From: Actinomycetes bacterium
GTDB taxonomy: Bacteria > Actinomycetota > Acidimicrobiia > Acidimicrobiales > Palsa-688
Direction of reading: 5' to 3'
Assembly: GCA_021838445.1 (NCBI GenBank)
Contig: JAKCDU010000004.1
Span: forward strand, 1 to 64,000
DNA: 64,000 bases
In this document: positions 3,218 through 53,902 of the stretch, in pieces
How positions within the stretch are numbered: position 1 is the first letter of the stretch
Layout of the letters: the number at the start of each line of letters is the position of its first letter
Program-made: the position numbers and the translations under genes
Notes under the pieces: model-generated
The model's database searches: none
What the model saw: the letters and a program-made list of their open reading frames with translations, nothing else
Told to the model about the DNA's origin: nothing

Positions 3218-5228
3218 ATCCCCCCTCGATTTCCAACACTTCGCAGACGGCCGCCACCAGGCCCTCGGAGGTGAAAGGTTTCTCCAACAACCTCACCCCC
3301 TCCTCGAGCACCCCGTGGTGGACGATCACATCGTGGGTGTAACCGCTCATGTACAGCACCGGGGCGGTGACCCCCATCTCCCGCAGGGTCTGGACCATGG
3401 CCTTGCCGGACCCCCCCGGCATGATCACGTCGGTGAGGACCAGATCGACGAGCCCCGGGTCCCGGCGCACCAGATCGAGGGCCCGCGCCGCGTCAGGAGC
3501 TGGGAGGACCTCGAACCCGTATCGGGTGAGCATGCGCCGGGCCGGCTCGCGCACCATCTCCTCGTCCTCGACGAGCAGGATCGTCCGACCTCGGCCGCTC
3601 GACGAGTGGTGGCTCGCAGCCGCGGCCGGTGTACCCACCGCCTGGTTGGTCCCGGGGAGGAGGATCCTCACCGTGGTACCCACGCCCGGCTCCGAGTAGA
3701 TCATCACGTCGCCGTTGGCTTCGGTGACGATGCCGTAGACCGTGGCCAACCCGAGACCGGTGCCTTCGCCCTTGGGCTTGGTGGTGAAGAACGGCTCGAA
3801 GGCCCGCTCCCGCACCTCGGGGGACATCCCCCGGCCGGTGTCGGAGACGCTGAGGCGAACATAGGACCCGGAGCGAGGGGCGCGCCGGGTGCCCATCTCG
3901 TCGTCCACTTCGAACAGGTCGGTGGTGATCCGGAGGAACCCGCCCGATTCGGCCATGGCGTCGCGGGCGTTCACCGCCAGGTTCATGATCACCTGCTCGA
4001 GTTGACCGGGATCGATGCGGATGTTGGGCAGGTCGGGGGCCAGCGCAGTGGAGAGCTGCACCGACTCGCGGATCATGCGCCGCAGAAGGCTCTCCATCTC
4101 GGTGACCGAGGCATTGAGGTCGACCACCTCCGGTGAGACCCGTTCGCGGCGGCTGAAGATCAGCAGCTGGCGAGTGACCTGGGCGGCGCGCATCGCCACC
4201 TTGGTGATCTGCGCCACGTCCTCGGCCACCAACGCCACGGCGGGGTCGTCGCCCAGGCCGAGGCGGGCGGTCAGCTCGGCCAGGCCGGACGCCACCAACG
4301 TGGCGTAGTTCATGATGCCGGCCAGCAGATTGTTGAAGTCGTGGGCGATCCCCCCGGCGAGCTGGCCGATGCTCTCCAGGCGCTGCGACTGGTGGAGCTG
4401 CGCCTGCAGGACGGCCCGTTCCTCCTCGACCTGGGCCCGCTTGAGCTCGGCCCGTAGCTGAGCCTTCTCGCCCTCGAGGCGGCGGCGCTCGGTAACGTCT
4501 CTCACCGCGGCGACGACGAGCGGGGCGTCGGAGGTCTCGAGAGTCGCCAGGGAAACCTCTACGGGAAAAAGGGAACCGTCCCTGCGCCGGGCTGACAGCC
4601 GCCGCTGATCGCCGATCAGCCGGGTGCTCGGACGGGCCGCGTAGCGGGCCCGCAGCTCCGGGTGGCGGGGCATGACGTCCTCGGGCACGAGGACGTCGAT
4701 GCTGCGGCCGATCAGCTCCTCGCGGTTGTAGCCGAACACCCGCAGGCACTGATGGTTGGCGGCCACGATGATGCCGTCGGGCCTCACGCACATCATGGCG
4801 TCGGGCGAGCCGTCGAGAAGCACCTCGAGGCGGTCCTCGGCCAGCTCCCGCCTCGACACGTCGAGCGTCACCACCTGGAGGTAGGGCGCGTCCCGGTCCG
4901 GATCCCGGACCACGCTCACCCAGCAGTCGGCCCACACCGGGGGTCCGCCGGGACGGGCGTAACGACGGCGGAAGTACAACGGGCTTTCCTGCCCGGTGCC
5001 GAGGCGCCGGAGATGCTCCTCCACCGTCGGGCGCCCGTCGGCCTCGACGAGCTCCACGGCGTGGCGGCCGATCATCTCATCCGGTCGGTGGCCGGTCAGC
5101 GACGCCGCGGCCGGGTTGGCGGCCAGGATGGTGCCGTCCATATCGGTCAGCACGATCCCGATCGGGCTCTGCTCGTAGAGGGTGCGGAGGCTCGCCGTGC
5201 TCACGTAACCATCCGGACCAATCACCAT
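3192..5228 (-). CDS. PAS-PAS hybrid sensor histidine kinase with C-terminal receiver
   Basis: A 678-residue cytoplasmic kinase with no membrane segment. PAS 1 is at about 8-125 and PAS 2 at about 133-250, each followed by a linker; a coiled coil (250-285) leads to the dimerisation domain with H296 ([13 protein letters not shown]). The ATPase domain has an N-box ([10 protein letters not shown], 416-425), G1 (DTGRGM, D463) and G2 ([13 protein letters not shown]). A receiver follows at about 548-665 (D600, K650). The HDFNNLLAG form of the H-box is typical of PAS-containing hybrid kinases sensing intracellular redox or small-molecule signals; the ligand cannot be read. AAGGGTGGTCC precedes the ATG. 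It is the first gene of a pair with the REC/HD-GYP/REC/LuxR gene. Confidence 0.93.
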
Positions 5229-15343: not shown

Positions 15344-16570
15344 TCAGCCGGCGAAGGCGACCTCCACGAAGTCCCTGGACTCGAGGGTGGGCGCCACGTA
15401 ACGGTCGGCGGGCCGCTGCATCTGCGGGTACAGCTTGGTGCCGGTCAGGAGGGTCGGCTCCGCCGGGTTGGGGTGGGTGTAGATGTTGAACGTCACCCAC
15501 TCGGGGTTGATGTCGAGGGTCATGGCCCGAACGGCGCCGGCCCGCTGGAGGGCCTCGGCCAGCGTCTTGGCGGTCAGAGCTGGCCCCGCCACGTACACCA
15601 GCGCCCCATCGGCGGTGACGCCCACCCCGGAGCGGGCCACCACAGTCGAGGTGTTGAGAGTGGCGCCCCACACCGCGGTGTCGTAGTAGGTCGCCGACGC
15701 CGACACCTGGCCCTGGTCGACCATGGGCACCAGGTTCTGCAGCACCGACACCACGTTGGGCGTCATGGTCACCTCGCTACCCCAGGCACCCACGTCGACC
15801 TTGCCGTTGCTGTAGAACACCAGCGAGGCGGCTCCGGGGACGAGCGGCACGGCGGTCCGGCCATCGAGGTAGAACCCGCCGTGGGCGTCCTGGAAGCGGA
15901 AACCCCCGTTGAAGGCGGCCAGGATGGACGGCGCCTCAGCCGGGGTGATGTAGGGCGGGTGGGACCAGGTGCCCCCCGGTTCGGTGAGCCCGGGGATGAG
16001 CGACAGGTGCAGCATCAGCGGGTCCATCCACACCGCGCTGGTGATCTCCGAGGTATAGACGTTGTCAGCTCGGAACTGAGCCTCGTACATGGCGGCGTGG
16101 CCGTTGACGATGGGCCCGATGGGCAGCCACTGGCCCTCCCCGGCCAGCGCCGGTGACACGACCAGCGGGACGGAAGCCGGCGTGGGGAGGAACTGCTGCA
16201 CCGGGGTGGTCGGCTGGCTGCCGGCGATCTGCACCTTGGCTTCGGGGTTGAGACCCTTGGGCGCCCCACCCTTGGCCGGCTGGTGGGCGGTGTAGTAGTA
16301 GGACTCGAACTGGCTGACCAACGGCCCCATGCCGTGGGATCTCATCCAGTCGGCCCACTTGGCCGAGAAGCTCTCGTTGCCCGGGGTGCTGTAGGCCGAC
16401 ACCACCGACCAGAGACCGAGCGAGGCGATCACGACCAGCACGGCCCCGGTTACAGCCAGGGCCACCCGGGCCGATGACCGGCGACCCGGCGGACGCCGCC
16501 GCGGTGCTCCGAAGGTGGTCTCGATGGCCTCGTAGGCGGGGGGCAGGATGGAGCGTTCGGTCCGGGTCAT
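15344..16570 (-). CDS. Membrane-anchored phosphodiester glycosidase (NAGPA)-like protein
   Basis: A 408-residue protein with a cytoplasmic tail, one membrane anchor (about 35-58) and an external domain. The core AAFNGGFRFQDAHGGFYLDG, LVFYSNGKVDVGAWG and GVGVTADGALVYVAG is typical of the family that includes N-acetylglucosamine-1-phosphodiester alpha-N-acetylglucosaminidase and YomE-like cell-wall proteins. It is a paralogue of the C-terminal half of the fusion protein at 51971-53902, sharing AAFN(A/G)GF and ARSxxGxTxxG blocks. It overlaps the ferredoxin gene by 4 bp, an odd partner for a glycosidase. It may act on cell-surface glycopolymers. Confidence 0.82.
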   Translation of the reverse strand: MTRTERSILPPAYEAIETTFGAPRRRPPGRRSSARVALAVTGAVLVVIASLGLWSVVSAYSTPGNESFSAKWADWMRSHGMGPLVSQFESYYYTAHQPAKGGAPKGLNPEAKVQIAGSQPTTPVQQFLPTPASVPLVVSPALAGEGQWLPIGPIVNGHAAMYEAQFRADNVYTSEITSAVWMDPLMLHLSLIPGLTEPGGTWSHPPYITPAEAPSILAAFNGGFRFQDAHGGFYLDGRTAVPLVPGAASLVFYSNGKVDVGAWGSEVTMTPNVVSVLQNLVPMVDQGQVSASATYYDTAVWGATLNTSTVVARSGVGVTADGALVYVAGPALTAKTLAEALQRAGAVRAMTLDINPEWVTFNIYTHPNPAEPTLLTGTKLYPQMQRPADRYVAPTLESRDFVEVAFAG

Positions 16571-16806
16571 CGCGCCCGTCCACCGGCCGTCCGGGCCACT
16601 TCTACCTCCGTGGCGAGGAGAGCCAGCGTGGGACAGGCGGCCACGGCCCGGCGGGCGTGCGCCTCGAGGTGGTGCGGGACCGGCTGCTCGGAGACCATCG
16701 GGTAGCCCCAGTCGTCGAGCTGGATCAGCTCCGGGAGCAACTCAGCGCATATCCCGTGGGCGTCGCAGCGGATCGGGTCGACCACGAGTCGACGGGTCCG
16801 GTTCAA
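16567..16806 (-). CDS. Small single-cluster ferredoxin
   Basis: A 79-residue ferredoxin of the actinobacterial P450/redox type: DPIRCDAHGICAELLPE gives Cys-x2-His-x2-Cys, and AACPTLAL gives the last Cys-Pro. With His in the second ligand position this is the CxxHxxC...CP variant, usually binding a [3Fe-4S] or His-ligated [4Fe-4S] cluster. The gene overlaps the NuoF-like gene upstream and the NAGPA-like gene downstream by 4 bp each, so the likely electron donor is the NuoF-like flavoprotein (inference). Confidence 0.9.
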   Translation of the reverse strand: MNRTRRLVVDPIRCDAHGICAELLPELIQLDDWGYPMVSEQPVPHHLEAHARRAVAACPTLALLATEVEVARTAGGRAR

Positions 16807-18053
16807 ACCATTACCTCCGAGTAGCGAGGAAGAGCCAGGGACGGAGGCGGCCTCCGGCAGTCCCCTCCATGACGGTGGCTTTCTATCTCCCTTGCAAATA
16901 CCTGAATGCCACTACGGATCATACGGACTGCACCGTCAGGATGCTTGCATGCCCCACGCCCGTCGATCATCCACAGCCACCGGTCGATCTGGGCGTTCCA
17001 CTTGTTGGGGGCGCCGGCCGACAGCAGGCGACCGAGGCCGTCGGCCACCGTCGGCAGGCCCCGGGCGCACGGACCGCACTGCCCGGCGGACTGACCGGCC
17101 ATCCACGCAGCTATCATGGCCACTGCTTTCAGACCGCAGGTGTGGGGCCCGACCACGACCAGCGAACCGCAGCCCAGGCTGGCCCCGGCCGACCCGAGCC
17201 AGGCGGGATCGAGGCGGGCCGAGGTGGCCGCAGCGGGGCCGAGCCAGGTGCCGGCATACCCCCCGACGAGCACCCCCTGAACGGGCTGGTCGGCGCCGGC
17301 CGGGGCCAGCACGTCGACCAAGGGGGTGCCCATGGCCACCTCGTAGACTGAGGGGTGGCGCACGTCGCCGGTGACGGTGACGAGGGCGGTCCCGGGATGG
17401 GCGTCGGTGCCAAGAGCACCGAACCACGACGATCCGAACCGCCCGATCAGGGCCACGTGGGCGAGGGTCTCGGCGTTCTGGACCAGCGTCGGACGGCCGT
17501 CGACGCCCCGCTCGTAGGGGCGCCGACCGAACGAGGGCAGGGCCGGGTTCCCGTTGATCCAATTGACCAGGGCCGACTCCTCCCCGGTCACGTAGCCGGG
17601 GGGAGCGGCTTCGAGGCGGAACGGGACGGCGTCGAGCCCCCGCCCGGCCCGCTCCGAGATGGCCAACCCGCAGGCCCGCAGCGCCGCCGAGGCGCGGCGA
17701 TCGACGCAGACGATGACCTCCGAGGCCCCGAGGGCGCGGGCCGCCAGGGATGCCCCGTCGAGGACGAGGTGGGGGGCGTGGACCAGCAGCGTCTTGTCCT
17801 TGTTGCTCGCCGGCTCGCCCTCGGTGGCGTTGACCACCACCACGGGTCGGCCGCCGGCGGCGAGGGCCGCCCACTTGCGGGCCGTCGGGAACCCGGCGCC
17901 CCCCCGGCCGCCGAGGCGGCTGCGCCCGAGCTCGTCGAGCAGCTCCGGTCCCCGCCGGGGCGGGCCGCCCCACCGCGACAGGTGGGAGGCGAGGTCGGGA
18001 CGGGCGACGGTGGCCAACAGCCGGGGCAGCTGGCTGGCGTCGGGGGCGGTCAC
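16803..18053 (-). CDS. NuoF-like NADH-binding flavoprotein with altered Fe-S site
   Basis: A 416-residue relative of the 51-kDa subunit of complex I and of NAD-dependent hydrogenase/formate dehydrogenase diaphorases. FMN/NADH motifs are present (LGGRGGAGFPTARKW, NATEGEPASNKDK, YVTGEESALVNW), followed by an SLBB-type region and a C-terminal Fe-S helical domain. The cluster site reads SAGQCGPCARG...RGACKHPDG: the first of four canonical cysteines (ESCGxCxPC) is Ala, leaving three. The GTG start overlaps the ferric-reductase-like gene stop by 4 bp (GTGA). No other complex I subunits are nearby, so it is probably a stand-alone NAD(P)H:ferredoxin or NAD(P)H:membrane electron entry module (inference). 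Confidence 0.88.
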   Translation of the reverse strand: MTAPDASQLPRLLATVARPDLASHLSRWGGPPRRGPELLDELGRSRLGGRGGAGFPTARKWAALAAGGRPVVVVNATEGEPASNKDKTLLVHAPHLVLDGASLAARALGASEVIVCVDRRASAALRACGLAISERAGRGLDAVPFRLEAAPPGYVTGEESALVNWINGNPALPSFGRRPYERGVDGRPTLVQNAETLAHVALIGRFGSSWFGALGTDAHPGTALVTVTGDVRHPSVYEVAMGTPLVDVLAPAGADQPVQGVLVGGYAGTWLGPAAATSARLDPAWLGSAGASLGCGSLVVVGPHTCGLKAVAMIAAWMAGQSAGQCGPCARGLPTVADGLGRLLSAGAPNKWNAQIDRWLWMIDGRGACKHPDGAVRMIRSGIQVFAREIESHRHGGDCRRPPPSLALPRYSEVMV

Positions 18054-18760
18054 GGGTGGCTCCCCGTCGCGCCGACGGCGGGGATGGTAGACACCGGCGG
18101 CGTTCCCGCCCGGCGGGCCCAGCCGGCGCGCAGCGGCCCCTGCTCGGCCCAGACCGCCACGACCAGCAGCAGCACCGCGGCGGAAGCCGCGGCGGTGAGG
18201 CGGTACGAGCCGGGGGCCCGGGCCCAGCGGGTGGTGAGCCGCCAGGCGAGGGCGGCGACCACGAGCGCCGTGCAAACCAGGTAGAGCAGCTGCACCCAGC
18301 CGATCCGGGCGTCGGAGCCGGTGCCGAGGCCGTGGACGAGAGCCACCGGCCAGCAACCGTAGGCCAGCCAGTGCACGGCTCGCCACCCGCGGTGACCGAT
18401 GTACTGGCGGATCAGGCTGGTCACGATCAGGGTCACGAGCAGATCGAAGGCCAAGGCGCCGAGGCCCAGCCAGAACGGGCGGTAGCGGCCGATGAACGGC
18501 ACCACCGCGTCGACGAGGGCGATCGGAGCGAAGGGATCGGCGACGGCGGTGAGGATGTGCACGGCGAGCAGACCGACAGCCACCAGGGAGGCGTTGCGGT
18601 GCAGCCCGGAGATCACGAAGCGGGGCAGCCCGGGACGGGCGTAGCGCGCCAGTTGGGCCACGCCGAGAGCCACCGTGAGGCTGAGCAGGACCAGGCTGAC
18701 CAGCCCGAAACCCCTGGTCAGGTACCACAGCACCTTGGGGTTGGCGGCGCCTAGCAGCAT
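18050..18760 (-). CDS. Ferric-reductase-like transmembrane haem protein
   Basis: A 236-residue membrane protein with six predicted helices. Conserved His pairs (LHRNASLVAVGLLAVH, and IGHRGWRAVHWLAYGCWPVA then LVH) match the bis-haem ferric reductase/NOX transmembrane domain, and ADPF follows the first pair as in the family. No FAD/NAD domain is fused, so electrons must come from another protein, probably the NuoF-like protein or ferredoxin encoded downstream. I chose the ATG at 18760 (preceded by GCGAGG), which overlaps apbE by 10 bp; an ATG 21 bp further upstream is also in frame. Confidence 0.87.
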   Translation of the reverse strand: MLLGAANPKVLWYLTRGFGLVSLVLLSLTVALGVAQLARYARPGLPRFVISGLHRNASLVAVGLLAVHILTAVADPFAPIALVDAVVPFIGRYRPFWLGLGALAFDLLVTLIVTSLIRQYIGHRGWRAVHWLAYGCWPVALVHGLGTGSDARIGWVQLLYLVCTALVVAALAWRLTTRWARAPGSYRLTAAASAAVLLLVVAVWAEQGPLRAGWARRAGTPPVSTIPAVGATGSHP

Positions 18761-19689
18761 GTCGGAACCTCGCTCGGCCATCCGGCCACGGTGACCGGCG
18801 CACCACCCGGCGGCACCAGCCGGGCGGGCAGGCCGAGCCGCACCAGCCACCCCGGCGCGCCCTCTCCCATGACGATGGCGGCGCAGGAGGCGATGTTGGC
18901 GTCCAGGCAGGATGCTGCGGCCACGCTCACCAGCCGCCAGCGCTCTTCGGCGGGCAGGGAGGTGGCCGGGTCGATCAGGTGGTGGACGGATCGACCGCCG
19001 CGCCGCCAGCGGCGCACCGAGGTACTCGAGGTGGCCAGGCCCCCGTCGCGGATGGCCACCACCGGCCCGGGCCCGTCGAGAGGGGCAGCGTGGTCCTCGG
19101 TGATGCGGACCGGCCAGCCCGCGTCGGGGGCCGGTCCGGCCACGGCGATGTCCCCCCCGAGCCCGACCAGCACCCCGACCCCGGTCCGCTCGGCGATACG
19201 GCGCGCCGCCCGGTCCGCGCCCAGAGCCTTGGCCGTCGCCCCCAGGTCGAGATGGACCCCGACCGGCAGGGCGATGGTCGACTGGGCGGTGTCCACAGCG
19301 ACGCATCGCCAGCCCGGGACCGGGCGGACGGCGAACTCGACCGGCGGCCCGTCAGGGGCCAGGGCGGCGAAATCCCGGTCGTAGCCGGCCACCTCGAGGG
19401 CCCGGCCGACCGTCGGATCGACCCTCCCGTCGGTGAGCCGGGCGGCCCGCAGAGCCTGCTGTACCGCCTCGAGCAGGAGCCGCGACACCTGGACCGGTCG
19501 GCGCCCCGACGAGGCGTTGAGACGGTACAGCTCGCTGTCGTCGCGGAAGCGGCTGCAGGCCAGGTCCAGCTGGTCGATCTCGTCGAGCAGGACTTCGAGC
19601 GCCTCCGCCTCGGCCCCGGGGTCGGTGAGCACCAGAGCGGCCGTGGAGCCCAGCGCCGGGAAGGGTTCCACGGCGTGCAGAGAGGTCAC
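18751..19689 (-). CDS. apbE: FAD:protein FMN transferase (ApbE family)
   Basis: Attaches FMN covalently to Ser/Thr of exported flavoproteins using FAD and Mg2+. The 312-residue product shows CSRFRDDSELYRLNAS, the FAD-binding HLDLGATAKALGADRA, GGDIAVAG and HHLIDPATSLPA. No lipobox or signal peptide is visible, so it may be cytoplasmic, unlike many ApbE lipoproteins. The expected FMN-binding-domain substrate is not encoded in this window; the preceding small gene product lacks the D-x-S/T-G-A-S/T acceptor motif. It is in an operon with the ferric-reductase-like protein. Confidence 0.92.
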   Translation of the reverse strand: MTSLHAVEPFPALGSTAALVLTDPGAEAEALEVLLDEIDQLDLACSRFRDDSELYRLNASSGRRPVQVSRLLLEAVQQALRAARLTDGRVDPTVGRALEVAGYDRDFAALAPDGPPVEFAVRPVPGWRCVAVDTAQSTIALPVGVHLDLGATAKALGADRAARRIAERTGVGVLVGLGGDIAVAGPAPDAGWPVRITEDHAAPLDGPGPVVAIRDGGLATSSTSVRRWRRGGRSVHHLIDPATSLPAEERWRLVSVAAASCLDANIASCAAIVMGEGAPGWLVRLGLPARLVPPGGAPVTVAGWPSEVPTCC

Positions 19690-19985
19690 GACCCTCCGGA
19701 GCTGACGACCGGGGGGTTGTAGACCGGCTGCGGGGGTGCCGTAGGGGGGGTGAGGGTCTGGGGTGCCTGGTAGGTGGCCGAGCCGCCGTCGCCGGCCGCC
19801 GTCGCCGGCGCAGCGGTGGTCGGCGTGGCGCTCGTAGCCGGCGACGCCGCCGCCGAGTGCCCCGGAAAGGCCTTGGCCACCCCCACCGAGAACACCCCGG
19901 CCGAGACGAAGGCGCCGGCGGCGAGGAGCCGGGTGCTGGTGGACAGGCGGAGGAGGCCGTCGTCGCGAACCCGCTCCCGCCTCAT
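19686..19985 (-). CDS. Small membrane-anchored Pro/Thr/Ala-rich protein
   Basis: A 99-residue protein with a basic N-terminus (MRRERVRDDG), one hydrophobic segment (LLAAGAFVSAGVFSVGVAKA) and an external low-complexity tail rich in Ala, Thr, Pro and Ser, ending VYNPPVVSSGGS. It overlaps apbE by 4 bp. In comparable operons this position can hold an FMN-binding protein, but no FMN-binding domain or acceptor motif is present. It could be a remnant or a tether; function unknown. Confidence 0.7.
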   Translation of the reverse strand: MRRERVRDDGLLRLSTSTRLLAAGAFVSAGVFSVGVAKAFPGHSAAASPATSATPTTAAPATAAGDGGSATYQAPQTLTPPTAPPQPVYNPPVVSSGGS

Positions 19986-20075
19986 CGCTTCAGCTTCGTG
20001 GACATCGATTCCCAGTGTGGGACGGTCGAGCCCAGAAAAGGATTAGAGGTAGGTAAAGATTCGATCAAGGAAGCC

Positions 20076-20759
20076 TCAGTGTCCGATGAAAGCCGGCAGG
20101 TTGGCCAGGTAGTGAGTGGTGGCGCTCCGCATGGAGAGACCTAGGACCACGCCGACAGCCAGGCTGCTGACGAGCAGCCACTGCCGGGCCGACGCCCCTC
20201 TCACCTGGGAGCGGGTGCGGCGGGCCAGGTCGAGCGGGGCCAGGTGTGCGGTCTCGACGATGTGGCCGAGCACGTGTACGGCCATGGCGCCGAACCAGAG
20301 CACGAAACTGGCCCGGTGCAGAGTCAGCAGGTTCCCGCCGAGGGCCTTGGGGTAGAGGACCGCCCCGACCCCGGAGGCGAACAGGACGACGGTGAGCACC
20401 ACCACCACCGGTCCGAGGAGACGCAGGAGGGCGGGAGGAGGACCTTTGCGGCGGTAGGCGGGAGCCCCGCTGTAGTAGCGGACGAACCGCCAGGTCGTCG
20501 AGGCCATCTTCAGCGCCACGGGAGGGATCAGCAGCATGCCTATGAACACGTGCAGCTGCAGGTGCTGGCGGATCCCGAGGATGGTGAGGCCCTCGGCCAA
20601 CAGCAGCACGAGGAGGACCATGGCGGTGGCACCGGTGAGGCGCGAGTTGGACTCCACCCCGGAGTCGCCCCGACGCCGGCGCTGCACCTGCGGGCGCTGG
20701 CCTACCGGCTGGCGCTGCGCGTACTCGAACCGGGGCCACCCGGAGTCGTCGACGACCAC
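20076..20759 (-). CDS. b-type cytochrome-like membrane protein
   Basis: About 227 residues with an N-terminal basic cytoplasmic stretch and four main hydrophobic helices. Histidines lie near helix ends in a pattern fit for haem b (LQLHVFIGMLLIPP, TLHRASFVLWFGAMAVHVLG then H), resembling cytochrome b561/PepSY-like or DUF4405-like membrane cytochromes. It lies between a two-component system and the ApbE/ferric-reductase genes. The GTG at 20759 is chosen because TACCTT (20767-20772) lies 7 nt before it, as for a leaderless message; a TTG three codons upstream is the alternative. Confidence 0.72.
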   Translation of the reverse strand: MVVDDSGWPRFEYAQRQPVGQRPQVQRRRRGDSGVESNSRLTGATAMVLLVLLLAEGLTILGIRQHLQLHVFIGMLLIPPVALKMASTTWRFVRYYSGAPAYRRKGPPPALLRLLGPVVVVLTVVLFASGVGAVLYPKALGGNLLTLHRASFVLWFGAMAVHVLGHIVETAHLAPLDLARRTRSQVRGASARQWLLVSSLAVGVVLGLSMRSATTHYLANLPAFIGH

Positions 20760-20766
20760 ACTCCGC

Positions 20767-20772
20767 AAGGTA
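20767..20772 (-). promoter_or_regulatory. Possible -10 box of the cytochrome gene
   Basis: TACCTT on the minus strand, 7 nt before the GTG at 20759, in the 55-bp gap after the histidine kinase gene. It suggests the cytochrome/ApbE block has a start of its own in addition to any read-through from the two-component system. Confidence 0.4.
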
Positions 20773-20823
20773 GAGGCCCGATCCCGCCTCCTATGGGCAG
20801 CCGGGCCAAGCTTTGCCGAACCT

Positions 20824-22224
20824 TTACCTGTGCAGCGACCGTGAGCCCGGGCGGGGGGAGGGGGGCAGCGACACGACGGCGTCGAGGCCGCCGCTCGGGA
20901 CGGGTCGGAGGCTCACCTCCAGCCCGTTGCGGTGGGCCAGCTCGGCGACTATGGCCAGGCCGAGCCCGCTGTGACCCGAAGGCCGGGCGGACCCCTGCCA
21001 GAAGCGGTCGAACGCCCGGTGACGGTCCTCCTCCGACATCCCCGGGCCTTCGTCGCTCACGTGGACCTCGGCGCCGCCGGCGGGGCCGGACTGGAGGATC
21101 ATGCGGATAGTGGTCGACGCCGGGCTGATCTCCACGGCGTTGGCCAGCAGATTGTCCAGGATCTGCTCCAGGTCCCCGGGGTTCAGGGGGCAGCGGTAAT
21201 CGTCGGGCAGGCTGCTGCGACATTCGAGCACCACGCCCTTCTCGGCGGTCAGCGGCGCCCACGCCACGCAGCGTTCGTCGAGTACCGAAGCCACGTCGAT
21301 GTCGGCTCGGGAGACGATCTCGTGACCGGCCCGGCCGAGCGTGAGCAGCCCGTCCACCAGCCGCGACAGCCGCTGGACCTCCCGCCCGACGGCGGCGATG
21401 GAATCCTGGCTGGCGACATCGGCGGTCGCTTCGAGATTCTCCAGTCGCAGCCGCAGGGCGGTCAGCGGCGATCTGAGCTGGTGGGAGGCGTCGGCCACGA
21501 AGCGACGCTGGCCCTCGATCAGCCCGTCGAGCCGCCCCGCCATGTGGTTGAACTGGCGGGCCAGGGAGCGGATCTCGTCGGGTCCGACCTGCTCGCTGGC
21601 CCGCAGCCCGAGCTCACCGCGACCGAAGCGGTCGACGGTGGTCTCCAGCCGGGCCAGCGGACGGGCCAGGGAGCGGGCCAGCACGACACCGGCCAGGCCG
21701 GCGATCACGATGGCGCCGAGGGCGAACAGGCCGAGGGCCAGCCAGATCTCGTGGATCCGCCGTTCGGTCAGCTCGGCCGGGGCGGCGAGGACGACGGCCG
21801 CCACGGTCTGGCCGTTCTCCACGATGGGCACCGCGGTCACCGCGAAGGCGTCCCCCTCGTCCTCGCTGAACACCGCGACGGTCTGGCCGGCGAGGGCCCG
21901 GGCCATGAGGCCGCCCCACTCGTTTCGCACCTCGTCGTGGGCCTCGGTGCTCGACGAGGCCAGGACCGCTCCCGACACCGACTCGAGCACGACCTCGCCA
22001 CCGGTGCGGCTGCCGTAGCCGGCCACGGTGGAGCTCAGCCGGCTCCGGTGGGCGGGGCCGAGCGAGTCGTTCACCAAGGCGACGAGCCCCGCCCCCTCCT
22101 TCTCGACCTGGTTGGTGGCGAGCTGCCTCTCGAACCGCTGCGCCAGAGTGGCGAGCGGGGCCTCGAGGACGAGCAGGATGAGCACCGCCAGACCGAGGTA
22201 GGAGATGAGGAGCCGGCGGGTCAA
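20824..22224 (-). CDS. Membrane sensor histidine kinase (OmpR-system type)
   Basis: A 466-residue kinase. Helix 1 (about 4-27), an extracellular sensor of about 130 residues, helix 2 (about 157-182), HAMP, then the phospho-acceptor motif FVADASHQLRSPLTALRLRL, N-box LEQILDNLLANAVE, G1 VSDEGPGMS and G2 GHSGLGLAIVAELA. No known ligand-binding fold was recognised in the sensor. It overlaps the response-regulator gene by 4 bp and precedes the cytochrome/ApbE/ferric-reductase block by 55 bp, so redox or metal sensing is plausible (inference). Confidence 0.93.
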   Translation of the reverse strand: MTRRLLISYLGLAVLILLVLEAPLATLAQRFERQLATNQVEKEGAGLVALVNDSLGPAHRSRLSSTVAGYGSRTGGEVVLESVSGAVLASSSTEAHDEVRNEWGGLMARALAGQTVAVFSEDEGDAFAVTAVPIVENGQTVAAVVLAAPAELTERRIHEIWLALGLFALGAIVIAGLAGVVLARSLARPLARLETTVDRFGRGELGLRASEQVGPDEIRSLARQFNHMAGRLDGLIEGQRRFVADASHQLRSPLTALRLRLENLEATADVASQDSIAAVGREVQRLSRLVDGLLTLGRAGHEIVSRADIDVASVLDERCVAWAPLTAEKGVVLECRSSLPDDYRCPLNPGDLEQILDNLLANAVEISPASTTIRMILQSGPAGGAEVHVSDEGPGMSEEDRHRAFDRFWQGSARPSGHSGLGLAIVAELAHRNGLEVSLRPVPSGGLDAVVSLPPSPRPGSRSLHR

Positions 22225-22889
22225 GCGTTACCGACCAGGGCCCCGCCCAGGCGCAGGCCGACCTTGCGCACGGTCTCGATCCAGTCCGGATTGCCGAGCT
22301 TCTTGCGCAGCGACGCCACGTGCACGTCGACGGTCTTGGTCGGCCCGTACCAGTGGGGATCCCAGACCTCCTCGAGGATCGTCTGGCGGTCGACGACCGC
22401 ACCGGGGTCGGAGGCCAGCAGAGCCAGCAGCTCGTACTCCTTGGGGGACAGGGTCACCTCCGCCCCGTCCACGAGGACCTTGCGGGTCCGGCGGTCGATC
22501 TGGAGAGGACCGAGGTCCTGTACCAGGTCACCGGCCGGCTCGGGCATGCGGCGCATGACCGCCCGGATGCGGGCGACCAGCTCACGAAAGCCGAAAGGCT
22601 TGACTATGTAGTCGTCGGCGCCCAGCTCCAGACCCAACACTTTGTCCCCCTCGTCGGCTCTGGCCGTGACCACCAGGATGGGCACCGCCGAGCGGGAGCG
22701 GATCTGCTGGCAGACGGCGTAGCCGTCCATGTCGGGCAGCCCCAGGTCGAGGATCACCAGGTCGGGGTCGTGCCCCGACAACGCCTCCCGGCCGGTGGCG
22801 ACCCGGGCGACGCTGAATCCCTCCCGGGCCAGCCCCTCGACGAGGGGTTCGGCTATGGAGTCGTCGTCTTCGACCACCAGCACCTGCAC
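22221..22889 (-). CDS. OmpR/PhoB-family response regulator
   Basis: A 222-residue regulator: receiver domain about 1-118 with acidic pocket VVEDDDS, phospho-acceptor Asp in LVILDLGLPDMDGYAV and Lys in DYIVKPFGF; winged-helix domain about 125-220 (LSPKEYELLALLASDPGAVV, VDVHVASLRKKLG). The GTG start is followed directly by the first strand of the receiver. It is the partner of the kinase gene overlapping its 3' end. Likely targets are its own operon and the downstream redox genes (inference). Confidence 0.93.
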   Translation of the reverse strand: MQVLVVEDDDSIAEPLVEGLAREGFSVARVATGREALSGHDPDLVILDLGLPDMDGYAVCQQIRSRSAVPILVVTARADEGDKVLGLELGADDYIVKPFGFRELVARIRAVMRRMPEPAGDLVQDLGPLQIDRRTRKVLVDGAEVTLSPKEYELLALLASDPGAVVDRQTILEEVWDPHWYGPTKTVDVHVASLRKKLGNPDWIETVRKVGLRLGGALVGNA

Positions 22890-50069: not shown

Positions 50070-50945
50070 TCAGGGGCTGAGCTCCCCACCGGCCACGGGC
50101 GGTACCAGCGGGACCTCCAGGCGAGACCGGCGGCTGAGGGCGACCGTCGCCGTGAGGGCCACCGACAGCGACAGAACCTCGAGGGCGACCGAGGCCCCAC
50201 CGGTGCGGAAGCGCTCGTCGAACACGCCCCAGCCGATAGCCACGCTGAGGACCGGGTTCAAGACATTGGTGGCGGGCAGGCTGGCGGTCATGGGCCCGGC
50301 CCGGTAGGCCATCTGGCTCATGGCCAACCCGCTGGCACCCACGGCGACGAGCGCGTAGAGCTGCCAACTCGTGATCAGATCCACACCGCCTTTCGAGGCG
50401 ATGTCGCCGCACACCTTGAGCAGAGCGGCGCTGCCGGCGAGGGCGATACCGGCGGCGGCGCCCAGCAGGGTGGGGGCGGCACGGGGACCCGACGTTCGGG
50501 CTGCGGCCACGCAGACCAGCACCCCGCCGGCGGACAGGACGAAGGCGATCAGCGCCGGAGCGGTGTCGAGATCCTTGGCGGGCTGGGAAGCGGGGGTGGC
50601 GGTGAGGAGGAACACCACGATCGACACGACGAGCAGCCCGGCCCACGAGGTGTCCACGACGTCGAGGGGCGGCGCGCCGACGAATCGACCGGCGGCCAGA
50701 GCGAACAGCAGTCCCAGGATCAGCAGCGGCTGGACCAGGGTGAGAGGACCCTCGTGCAGGGCGAAGGCGTGCAGCCCCAGGCCCCCGGCCAGCACCGCCG
50801 TACCGGCCAGCCACAGCGGGGTGGCCACCGCCTGGCGGAGACTGCGATGACCGGCCGGGCGGACGGCCTTGAACTGGATGGCGTTGCCCGCCGCGAACAG
50901 CGCCGCGGCGGCCAGACCGGCCCCGACTGCGACGGGGGTGCTCAT
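50070..50945 (-). CDS. DMT-family (EamA-like) permease
   Basis: A 291-residue membrane protein with nine or so helices in two related halves (VAVGAGLAAAALFAAGNAIQ; AAGIALAGSAALLKVCGD) and the DMT-like segments TLVQPLLILGLLFALA and MTASLPATNVLNPVLSVAIG. This is the type often called DMT transporter, exporting metabolites or drugs. The ATG at 50945 is preferred; an upstream extension runs through an 18-bp tandem repeat and is not family-like. Convergent with the GNAT gene, 9 bp apart. Confidence 0.85.
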   Translation of the reverse strand: MSTPVAVGAGLAAAALFAAGNAIQFKAVRPAGHRSLRQAVATPLWLAGTAVLAGGLGLHAFALHEGPLTLVQPLLILGLLFALAAGRFVGAPPLDVVDTSWAGLLVVSIVVFLLTATPASQPAKDLDTAPALIAFVLSAGGVLVCVAAARTSGPRAAPTLLGAAAGIALAGSAALLKVCGDIASKGGVDLITSWQLYALVAVGASGLAMSQMAYRAGPMTASLPATNVLNPVLSVAIGWGVFDERFRTGGASVALEVLSLSVALTATVALSRRSRLEVPLVPPVAGGELSP

Positions 50946-50994
50946 GGTCTTGAAACCGCGGTCGCCAGAGCAGGCGATGGCGAGTCGCACGGCC

Positions 50995-51078
50995 GGCAAG
51001 ACCCCACAGCCCGGCAAGACCCTGCGGCCGGGTCAGACCCCACAGCCCGGTCAACCACCGCGACCCGGTCAGCCACCG
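50995..51078. repeat. Tandem 18-bp repeat, 4.7 copies
   Basis: Units at 50995, 51013, 51031, 51049 and a partial one at 51067, of the form GG(C/T)(A/C)AGACCC(C/T)(A/G)C(A/G)GCC(C/G) with decay in the last copies. They lie between the response regulator stop (51069) and the DMT gene and reach a few bases into the regulator's 3' end. A slipped-strand expansion is the simplest origin. Confidence 0.85.
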
Positions 51079-51746
51079 TCTTCGGCCAGTCGGTAGCCGG
51101 ACCCCCGAACCGTCTCCAGGGATTGGCGCCCAAAGGGCAGATCGATCTTGCGGCGCAGGTAGCGGACGTAGACCTCCACGATGTTCTCGTCCCCCTCGAA
51201 GTCGAAATCCCAGACCCGATCGAGAATCTCCGACTTGGAGACGACCTTCCCGGCCCGGCTCATCAGGAACTCGAGAAGGGCGAACTCCCGGGGGCTGAGG
51301 GCGATGTCCTCGTCGCCGCGGCGGCAGCGGTGGGCGGCCGGGTCGATGGTCAGGTCGCCGGTCCTGAGCAGACCGGGCCGGGGATGGGCTCCCCTCCTGA
51401 TGAGGGCCCTTACTTGGGCGATGAGCACCACGAACGAGAAGGGCTTGGCCAGGAAGCCGTCGGCCCCGGTGTCCAAGGCTTCGGCTTCGTCCCATTCACC
51501 GGCTTTGGCGCTCAACATGAGGATCGGCGTCCAGTTCCCCTCGCGGCGCAGAGCGGCGCAGACCTTGTAGCCGTTCATCTTGGGGAGGAGGATGTCGAGG
51601 ATGATGGCGTCGTAGAAGGTCTGGTGGGCCAGGCAGAGTCCTTCTTCGCCGTCGGCGGCCACGTCGACGGCGAACCCCTCCGCCTCCAGCCCCCGCTTAA
51701 TGGCCGAGGCAACCCGTATGTGGTCCTCGACGGCCAGCACCCTCAT
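51069..51746 (-). CDS. Orphan OmpR/PhoB-family response regulator
   Basis: A 225-residue regulator: receiver (MRVLAVEDHIRVASAIKRGL; phospho-acceptor in AIILDILLPKMNGYKV; Lys in GFLAKPFSF) and winged helix (LSPREFALLEFLMSRAGKVV, IVEVYVRYLRRKIDL). No histidine kinase is adjacent. The ATG at 51746 is chosen because the first strand of the receiver begins there and GGAG is 6 nt upstream; an ATG 18 bp upstream is possible. An array of 11-bp repeats lies just before the gene and between it and the divergent amidase fusion. Confidence 0.92.
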   Translation of the reverse strand: MRVLAVEDHIRVASAIKRGLEAEGFAVDVAADGEEGLCLAHQTFYDAIILDILLPKMNGYKVCAALRREGNWTPILMLSAKAGEWDEAEALDTGADGFLAKPFSFVVLIAQVRALIRRGAHPRPGLLRTGDLTIDPAAHRCRRGDEDIALSPREFALLEFLMSRAGKVVSKSEILDRVWDFDFEGDENIVEVYVRYLRRKIDLPFGRQSLETVRGSGYRLAEDGG

Positions 51747-51775
51747 CACGATCTCCATCGACATCCTCGGCCCCT

Positions 51776-51819
51776 CAGCTGAGAGCCAGCTTGGAGTCAG
51801 CTTGGAGCCGGCTGAGAGC
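51776..51819 (-). promoter_or_regulatory. Four tandem 11-bp repeats: OmpR-family operator
   Basis: On the plus strand CAGCTGAGAGC, CAGCTTGGAGT, CAGCTTGGAGC, CGGCTGAGAGC follow one another without gaps (51776, 51787, 51798, 51809). On the minus strand this is TCTCAGC-N4-TCCAAGC-N4-TCCAAGC-N4-TCTCAGC, the 7+4 spacing of mycobacterial PhoP boxes (known consensus TCACAGC-N4-TCACAGC). It ends about 30 bp before the response regulator gene, so autoregulation is likely. Confidence 0.75.
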
Positions 51820-51871
51820 CTCGGCCCAGGAGCGGGGCGCCGGCCGACCCGAGCCGGTGCAGTGCGGTGCG

Positions 51872-51893
51872 GCGTTCAGCCGGCTCTCAGCCG
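51872..51893 (+). promoter_or_regulatory. Two further 11-bp repeats facing the amidase gene
   Basis: GCGTTCAGCCG followed by GCTCTCAGCCG, oriented opposite to the four-repeat block; the unit at 51883-51893 is the exact inverse of that at 51809-51819. TTGACA follows at 51896. Together with the other block this suggests one regulator controls both divergent genes. Confidence 0.65.
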
Positions 51894-51970
51894 CATTTGA
51901 CAGAGTGGGGGCAGGAGGACCGAATGCCTACACCAACCCGACGCCACCGTCGGCAGACCGGATAGCCAGC

Positions 51971-53902
51971 GTGGAACCACCTCCCGTACCGGGAGGTCCG
52001 GGTGAGCCTGACCCGACTCAGAACCGGCGGCTCCGGCGGCTCGGCCGACCGGTGCCGGTGGTGATGGGTGTGGTGGTAGGCGCAGCGGCGTTGATGATCG
52101 CCGCGACACTCCTGTCGACGACGCACCCCTCGAGAAGCGCCAGCGCCGCGGGGCCGGTCGGCCCGTCGGGGACCGCTCGGGGTGGGCGGTCCCCGACTTC
52201 GACCACGGTCCCGGCGCCGGCCGGCCCGCACCCCGTAGACGCCTCCCGCTTCGCGCCCGGGGCGTGCGTGCTGTACCCCCCTACCGCTGGTGACCGCCAC
52301 CGCACCGTGTTCCTCGACGCCGGCCATGGCGGACCCGACCCGGGCGCGGTGGGCACCACTTCTAGCGGGGTCACGGTCCACGAAGCCGACCTCACCCTGG
52401 CCGTCGTGCTCGACGCCGTGCCGCTCCTACGGGCTCAGGGCCTGACCGTGGTGGTGTCGCGGACCGGACCGGGCCTGGTCGGCCGGCTGAACGGCGCCGA
52501 CCTGGCCAACGGCATACTCACCGACCAGGGGGTCCACGACGACGTCGCCGCCCGCGACGCCTGTGCCAACGAATCCGGGGCCCAGGCCCTGGTCGGGGTC
52601 TACTTCGACGCCGGGCCGCCCAACGCCGCCGGCTCCATCACCGGTTACGACACGGCCCGTCCCTTCTCCGAGCAAAACCTCGAGTTGGCTCAGCTCGTGC
52701 AGGGCGACGTGATGGCCCGCTTCGACGCCCAGGCCTGGGGGATCCCCGACGGTGGGGTGGTGAACGACGCCTCGCTCGGGGGACCGCCGGCATCGGCGGC
52801 GGCCGCCGCCTACTCCCACCTGATGCTGCTCGGTCCGCCGGGGGCCGGATACAACCCCACCCCCAGCTCCATGCCCGGCGCCCTCATCGAGCCGCTCTAC
52901 ATCACCGACCCCTTCGAGGCCTCCATCGCCGACACCGAAGTCGGCCAGGAAGCCATGGCCCAAGGGGTCGCCCAGGCCCTCGAGCAGTTCCTGCCCGCCC
53001 CCACCGCCGCGGTTGCGCCCCCCCTGCCGACGGCGGCTGTGGCCGACCAAGCCCTCGTCGCCAGCCAGACCGTCGGAGGCGTGACCGTCGACGAGGTCTG
53101 GCAGGCCCCTCCCGCCGGCCCCGGGCAGGGTTCCATAACGGTGGCCGAGTTCGACCCGTCCCGGACCCGACTCGTGCTGCACGCCGGGACCCTTCAACCC
53201 GGCTCGCCAGGGCCGTGGCTCAACGGCCCCGCTGTGGGCGCCGCCGAGCAGGCCAGCCTGCTGGCCGCCTTCAACGCCGGGTTCAAGATGGCCGACTCCC
53301 GGGGCGGCTGGCTCTCCGAGGGCCATACGGTCGTGCCGCTGGTCGAGGGGGCAGCCAGCGTGGTCATCTACGCCGACGGCGGCGTCGACATAGGCTCGTG
53401 GGGTAAGGAGGTCCCGGCCCCGGGGCGCGTGGTGGCATCAGTGCGTCAGAACCTGCAACTGCTCGTCGACGGTGGGCAACCCCAGCTGCAGAACCCGGCC
53501 AACGAGACCCAGCTCGAGCAGTGGTGGGGAGTGGCGTTCCAGGCCGCACCCCTTGTGGCTCGCAGCTCGCTCGGTATCACCGCCGCCGGCCAGATCGTGT
53601 GGGCCGCCGGGACCGACGTCAGCATCCCGGCGCTGACCAACGCCCTGCTCGCCCACGGGGTGGTGCGGGCTCTCGAACTCGATATGAACGCCCCGCTGGT
53701 GCGTGGCTTCTTGTACCCCGCGCCCGGGACCATCACCTTCGCCGGGGCCGCTCAGAGCACCACGCCGGCCCTGCCCCTCGTCGCCGGCCAGACCCAGACG
53801 CCGGCCGACTACGGGCCCACCGGAAGCGGTGCGGCCGTCGTACCCCACTGCACCTATCTGACGACCTGCAGCCGGGACTTCTTCACGGTCATCACCCGCT
53901 AG
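51971..53902 (+). CDS. Fusion of N-acetylmuramoyl-L-alanine amidase and phosphodiester glycosidase domains
   Basis: About 643 residues. A membrane anchor (about 28-50) and linker lead to an amidase_3 domain (about 111-342): H119 in FLDAGHGGPDPGAVG, E138 in VHEADLTLAVV and catalytic-type E307 in ALIEPLYITD, but the third zinc ligand, normally His in a SIHAD-like strand, is Tyr (Y211, VGVYFDAG). A NAGPA-like domain follows (about 385-640; AAFNAGFKMADSRGGWLSEG, ARSSLGITAAGQIVW), paralogous to the protein at 15344-16570. It probably acts in the cell wall. The GTG at 51971 is my choice; a GTG at 51905 is possible. The next gene starts directly after the stop. Confidence 0.85.
   Translation: MEPPPVPGGPGEPDPTQNRRLRRLGRPVPVVMGVVVGAAALMIAATLLSTTHPSRSASAAGPVGPSGTARGGRSPTSTTVPAPAGPHPVDASRFAPGACVLYPPTAGDRHRTVFLDAGHGGPDPGAVGTTSSGVTVHEADLTLAVVLDAVPLLRAQGLTVVVSRTGPGLVGRLNGADLANGILTDQGVHDDVAARDACANESGAQALVGVYFDAGPPNAAGSITGYDTARPFSEQNLELAQLVQGDVMARFDAQAWGIPDGGVVNDASLGGPPASAAAAAYSHLMLLGPPGAGYNPTPSSMPGALIEPLYITDPFEASIADTEVGQEAMAQGVAQALEQFLPAPTAAVAPPLPTAAVADQALVASQTVGGVTVDEVWQAPPAGPGQGSITVAEFDPSRTRLVLHAGTLQPGSPGPWLNGPAVGAAEQASLLAAFNAGFKMADSRGGWLSEGHTVVPLVEGAASVVIYADGGVDIGSWGKEVPAPGRVVASVRQNLQLLVDGGQPQLQNPANETQLEQWWGVAFQAAPLVARSSLGITAAGQIVWAAGTDVSIPALTNALLAHGVVRALELDMNAPLVRGFLYPAPGTITFAGAAQSTTPALPLVAGQTQTPADYGPTGSGAAVVPHCTYLTTCSRDFFTVITR

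Follow-up and report, generated by a model that had tools for sequence, protein, structure and literature searches.

A 4+2 array of eleven-bp repeats beside an orphan OmpR/PhoB-family regulator gene as its likely operator

What is the role of an array of eleven-bp repeats, placed between a response regulator gene with no kinase beside it and a divergent gene for an amidase-like protein? The array lies in a 64-kb stretch of actinobacterial DNA, the whole of which is called the window here. A first-pass annotation had read the repeats as PhoP boxes controlling wall remodelling. The features of the locus are the following; G001 is the nearest genome, from a second species of the same genus.

50070..50945, minus strand: DMT-family transporter (NF038012), downstream of the regulator; a kinase gene intervenes in genomes G023 and G014
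51069..51746, minus strand: orphan OmpR/PhoB-family response regulator with a receiver and a winged-helix DNA-binding domain; translation from ATG 51746 or GTG 51749
51763..51768, minus strand: probable -10 of the regulator promoter, GAGGAT, 9 bp past the last box, placed by the spacer rule of 78 relatives
51778..51817, minus strand: four 7-bp boxes in tandem, spaced by 4 bp, facing the regulator; letters identical in G001
51818..51873, no strand: linker separating the blocks; it lacks conservation and serves as contrast region
51874..51891, plus strand: pair of boxes toward the amidase-like/NAGPA gene, GTTCAGC-cggc-TCTCAGC; conserved in G001, with very similar blocks in G023 and G042
51901..51906, plus strand: probable -10 of the amidase-like/NAGPA promoter, CAGAGT, 9 bp past the last box; unchanged in G001
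51971..53902, plus strand: divergent fusion gene, with an N-terminal membrane segment, an Amidase_3-like domain and a C-terminal NAGPA-like domain

The repeat array and its promoters

The repeats are found exactly at 51776-51893, where they had been located, and the proposed arrangement of four units toward the regulator and two toward the amidase-like/NAGPA gene holds, with a 7+4 geometry for which none of 2000 shuffles is comparable. On the minus strand, from 51817 to 51778, the larger block reads TCTCAGC-cggc-TCCAAGC-tgac-TCCAAGC-tggc-TCTCAGC, with a period of exactly 11. The units are thus TCTCAGC or TCCAAGC, as annotated, on this strand, while the first plus-strand unit is GTTCAGC and not TCTCAGC. 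The claim that one unit is identical across the blocks is borne out by GGCTCTCAGCCG, a perfect 12-nt match in opposite orientation. Direct-repeat 7-bp words with a 4-bp spacer are the layout of operators of the PhoB/PhoP type.

At period 11 the best four-unit self-similarity is 52 of 66, against a mean of 27.6 and a maximum of 41 in 2000 intergenic shuffles; scores at every other period of 7 to 15 are 21-31, and period 11 alone stands out. Within the 64-kb window, a degenerate pattern in three consecutive units occurs at the array only (0.08 expected, with at most 3 mismatches). The 4-Mb genome has four exact matches to TCYMAGC-N4-TCYMAGC, and the array accounts for three.

Both blocks end at the same distance from a predicted -10 element: TCTCAGC-N9-GAGGAT on the regulator side, TCTCAGC-N9-CAGAGT on the side of the fusion gene. 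This is close to the 10 bp or so between box end and -10 that is expected of such operators, although both hexamers are weak. The spacing was evaluated on 80 relatives with flanks, plus further relatives from family and order genomes; box pairs were scored leaving out unit bases 1 and 2, and without any use of the -10 spacer. A high-scoring 7-N4-7 pair lies just upstream of 79 out of 113 related regulators, against 0.4% of shuffles, and xAnnnT follows about 74 of 78 box pairs at a spacer of 9 (n = 14) or 10 (n = 60), any other spacer giving at most 4; these counts are not independent, since many loci, above all those of Microbacterium, are close kin. The fixed distance of 9-10 bp, which goes beyond the first-pass reading, would supply a mechanism. 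Translation of the regulator more likely starts at GTG 51749 or ATG 51746, since ATG 51764 overlaps the probable -10.

The repeats are present at orthologous loci, as the first-pass proposal required. In G001, whose regulator is 95% identical, the array is identical at 42 of 42 positions and the regulator leader at 29 of 29; the two-unit block with the stretch after it agrees at 26 of 28, while the linker (51818-51874) retains 36 of 57 (63%). Set against that linker, the conservation around the array is footprint-like in these alignments. The NAGPA-facing block also occurs, in very similar form, as GTTCAGCgcgcTCTCAGC in G023 and CTTAAGCgcgcTCTAAGC in G042. The spacer to the NAGPA -10 is 11 in G023, outside the 9-10 of the rule, and no regulator-facing box pair is seen in that genome. 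A paralogous locus of G001 (C195) has the order NAGPA | regulator-kinase, with boxes toward both genes, and in locus L032 TCTCAGCctccTCTCAGC-N10-CACACT faces a divergent operon that contains a NAGPA gene.

The orphan regulator and its DNA recognition

The regulator has a receiver (PF00072, 2.5e-26) and a Trans_reg_C domain (PF00486, 9.3e-27), with relatives 52-95% identical. Its phosphorylation pocket, D8/D51/S79/K101, is intact, and the gene is under purifying selection (dN 0.022, dS 0.158, dN/dS about 0.14). A kinase next door is typical of OmpR/PhoB regulators, not defining, and orphans are a known subtype. Here no histidine kinase adjoins the regulator, either in the window or in G001. Of the clear OmpR-type regulators of the genome, 11 out of 12 adjoin a HATPase kinase, the window regulator being the exception; the orphan status previously assigned to it is thus upheld.

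The related loci suggest where this status comes from. The kinase lies directly downstream in 76 of 78 relatives (L033-L110), and in the other two the contigs end there. Gene order is DMT-kinase-regulator | NAGPA in G023, whose DMT protein is 53% identical to that of the window, regulator-kinase-DMT in G014 and kinase-regulator | NAGPA in G042; it is DMT-regulator | amidase-like/NAGPA in the window and in G001. Compared with the order NAGPA | regulator-kinase-DMT of the relatives, the window locus corresponds to that same locus minus the kinase, which is kept in relatives of another genus. A tree groups the regulators of the window, G001, L032, G023 and G014, with moderate support (87/64). On this comparison, loss of the kinase gene appears as the simplest reading, and the locus would descend from NAGPA | regulator-kinase-DMT.

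No convincing kinase remnant was found between regulator and DMT genes, the best tblastn matches falling within the regulator gene or being weak. That gap (window 50946-51068), where relatives have the kinase, contains short imperfect repeats, in a number different from G001. The first-pass idea of a partner kinase encoded elsewhere finds no support: no orphan homologue of the ancestral kinase was found in the genome, where the best match (39%) belongs to a complete pair, C80. The receiver is without the usual Asp/Arg pair of the dimer interface (D97G, R111Q; R111H in G001). Loss of this salt bridge was considered as a marker of orphans and rejected: two kinase-paired relatives are also without both residues, so that the loss is not diagnostic. 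Since the phosphorylation pocket is kept, phosphate would probably come from a non-cognate kinase or a small phosphodonor.

For the boxes, the reference is M. tuberculosis PhoP, which reads TCACAGC via Asn212, Val213, Glu215, Ser216, Tyr217 and Tyr220. The last of these bonds C, the second base, while Ser216, with Asn212, reaches the third base via water (PMC4832192). Among relatives with solved structures PhoP ranks second (PDB 5ed4, 9ji3). The corresponding residues of the window regulator are Asn, Ile, Glu, Val, Tyr and Tyr, four of the six equal to PhoP, and its boxes retain T1, C2, A5, G6 and C7. The description as PhoP boxes is mostly supported, the 7+4 geometry included; bases 3-4 differ. 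With these residues, and with TCTCAGC/TCCAAGC as its boxes, the window regulator departs from what marks a PhoP orthologue. It may be called PhoP-like; PhoP identity is not claimed.

Within the clade, regulators with Tyr at the position of PhoP residue 220 have boxes whose base 2 is C in 10 of 12 units; with His, Arg, Ala or Ser there, it is T in 158 of 162. Since the independent lineages with Tyr are few, the correspondence between residue 220 and base 2 is a strong lead and not a proof.

Predicted targets

The divergent gene had been described as a wall hydrolase fusion. Its N-terminal half matches Amidase_3 (PF01520, 2.5e-19), and the His-Glu-His residues of this domain are zinc ligands. 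In all sampled members of the subfamily the second His is replaced by Tyr (LVGVYFDAG vs VSIHLNA). One zinc ligand being absent, hydrolase activity cannot be assumed, and the description as a working hydrolase finds no support here. The C-terminal half gives no Pfam match to NAGPA (PF09992) at E <= 0.1, and is 36% identical over 254 aa (E 4e-40) to a NAGPA-positive protein from L032 that is above the cut-off; by this alignment it is clearly homologous to NAGPA, but divergent. Within the family, the fusion gene was found only in G000 (the genome of the window), G001 and G006, and in G006 no such regulator lies beside it. The proposed link between array and divergent gene is supported.

A leader ORF, MPTPTRRHRRQTG, occupies window positions 51924-51965 (plus strand), with a strong AGGAGG site, and leaves 5 nt between its end and the GTG at which the fusion gene starts; it is kept in G001 with one residue changed, and translational coupling is possible. 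Elsewhere in the window (15347-22889, minus strand) another OmpR regulator and a kinase form a cluster with a NAGPA gene, ApbE and a cytochrome-b561-like protein. At least nine other loci likewise have NAGPA genes next to a regulator of this type.

The genome was searched both by pattern and by stretches. The degenerate motif shows no genome-wide enrichment over control; a regulon drawn from the motif alone was accordingly rejected, and only conserved, promoter-placed sites were kept. The second conserved promoter with boxes is that of an acyltransferase gene (PF01757), found in seven genomes of three genera (G000, G001, G002, G014, G023, G042 with two copies, and G011). Its layout begins with box-N4-box; a third box lies some three turns of 11 bp away from the first box and is followed by N9 and, nearly always, by xAnnnT. 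One G042 copy (C97) has GAGGAT at N9, as the window regulator promoter does. The acyltransferase gene, which the first-pass annotation had not considered, is probably a third target.

Other sites were set aside. TCTCAGCCGGCTCTCAGC (L111 2346-2367; G000:C117:64845-64866), close to where an MFS gene ends (3' side), has two units and three in G001; the site (C117:64846) is conserved, but its orientation is wrong for the next gene and its unit number variable. TCTCAGCcagcCTTCAGC (L111 5048-5064; G000:C117:67547-67563) is unchanged in G001. It precedes by about 60 nt a small gene with a secreted-looking product, after which comes an ApbE gene, but its orientation is the opposite one; this site (C117:67547) was dropped, no -10 being seen at the right spacing. 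At about 4825-4960 of the same L111 segment a methyltransferase gene remnant is present, the gene being intact in G001 (L173 168-890).

A likely operator and its alternatives

The repeats, their conservation and spacing, the orphan status and the synteny are read directly from the DNA; binding by the orphan, activation rather than repression, the signal and the phosphate source are what we infer from them. The array is likely an operator of the PhoB/PhoP-type orphan, serving autoregulation and control of the divergent gene, that is, a bidirectional operator of the adjacent regulator. Head-to-tail dimers would occupy the tandem 7-bp words with their 4-bp spacers. With the last word ending 9 bp upstream of the -10, the protein would stand in place of the -35 box and recruit RNA polymerase, in the PhoB-like, class II manner. 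Four units at its own promoter would allow two cooperative dimers, and thus positive autoregulation; the two opposite units would drive the amidase-like/NAGPA gene, and the conserved three-unit site elsewhere the acyltransferase gene. Against this reading stand the weak -10 hexamers, the G023 spacer of 11 with no pair facing its regulator, the G006 fusion gene with no such regulator at its side, the G002 and G011 drafts discussed below, and the motif's lack of genome-wide enrichment.

A more ambitious reading is put forward tentatively, as rather doubtful: the kinase-free regulator may sustain itself, the four-unit operator giving cooperative, concentration-driven autoactivation over a small envelope regulon, with residue 220 setting base 2 throughout the clade. 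If so, that regulon would comprise the amidase-like/NAGPA protein and the membrane acyltransferase, and no dedicated sensor would be needed.

It is unlikely that the operators, though real, are read mainly by the kinase-paired C80-type regulator, a paralogue with a very similar recognition helix, and that the orphan binds them only in a minor way or as a competitor. At the PhoP-220 position Tyr is found in the C80 regulator as well (L115), and it occurs with its kinase in G002. The acyltransferase boxes persist in the G002 and G011 drafts, where no window-type regulator was found, and this is the main reason for keeping C80 as a rival reader. Yet boxes of this kind are absent from the promoter of C80 in G000, G001 and G002, and the boxes flank the orphan gene, in a clade where autoregulatory boxes are the rule. 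The other genomes with acyltransferase boxes, G000, G001, G014, G023 and G042, all have the window-type regulator, which in G042 was found on a later check, as predicted.

That the orphan binds the array as a repressor, the four units limiting its own level and keeping the divergent gene off, is judged improbable. The orphan status and the many units would allow a blocking complex, and the sign of regulation is not fixed by sequence; however, the boxes do not cover the -10 or the start site, but stop 9-10 bp short of the -10, which is the arrangement of activated promoters of the PhoB type (PMC3413638).

A neutral tandem repeat with no function has very little in its favour. The same genome does contain a look-alike, four copies of CCTCAGCTGGC at period 11 (L112 2551-2593; G000:C17:61050-61089), which lies between convergent genes, on which ground it was rejected as an operator. 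The units of the window array, in contrast, differ among themselves and are nonetheless frozen between species while the linker drifts, which counts against neutrality; both blocks keep spacing and orientation to their promoters, and boxes occupy the corresponding position in related loci. Least credible of all is a nucleic-acid stem (attenuator or terminator) formed by the inverted blocks, suggested by the inverted matches I2 and I11: the plus-strand unit is TCTCAGG in G001 with no compensating change in the array, and neither predicted transcript has both arms, as both lie upstream of the expected starts.

If the operator reading is correct, nature provides here a clean case of a two-component locus in which the kinase was lost and strong selection on the operators persisted. 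The usefulness of an orphaned regulator becomes testable on a before/after pair of loci, the kinase-bearing G023, G014 and G042 versus the window and G001, and for DNA recognition of the PhoP type the clade provides a one-residue/one-base rule that can be tested. It also connects a membrane acyltransferase and the NAGPA proteins, which have been little studied, with one regulator in uncultured actinobacteria.

Each element is known by itself. In the papers searched, no description was found of a NAGPA-linked locus that has become kinase-less and carries a frozen operator of four units, nor of any match to TCTCAGC/TTCAGC boxes. Streptomyces CutR is likewise an OmpR-family actinobacterial regulator of envelope functions, but it binds TAWATAAA (PMC12802291), and a CutR-type motif was rejected on this basis. 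M. tuberculosis PhoP is also an actinobacterial member of the OmpR/PhoB family and shares the tandem 7-bp words with 4-bp spacer, in its operator TCACAGC-N4-TCACAGC (PMC4832192); a third repeat is present at some sites, and cooperative binding, extended to tetramers in vitro, has been reported. It differs in being paired with PhoR, in helix positions 213 and 216 (Ile and Val in the window regulator) and in its autoregulatory repeats, which lie downstream of the start site (PMC3413638). E. coli PhoB shares the 11-bp period and the class II layout, the box replacing the -35 element upstream of the -10 (PMC3413638), and differs in box sequence, cognate kinase (PhoR) and phosphate signal. Among the relatives L033-L110, autoregulated two-component systems with NTTCAGC-N4-NTTCAGC are found in Microbacterium, Nocardioides, Agromyces and others; the regulator of one record titled Acidobacteriota (L031, JAGWSF010000205.1) has nearly all its relatives in actinobacteria, and that label may be wrong. 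The NTTCAGC systems, of which the papers searched gave no description, keep their kinase, combine T at base 2 with His/Arg at PhoP-220, and usually have two units, not four, while sharing with the window locus the clade (60-69% identity), the upstream position of the boxes and their spacing to the -10.
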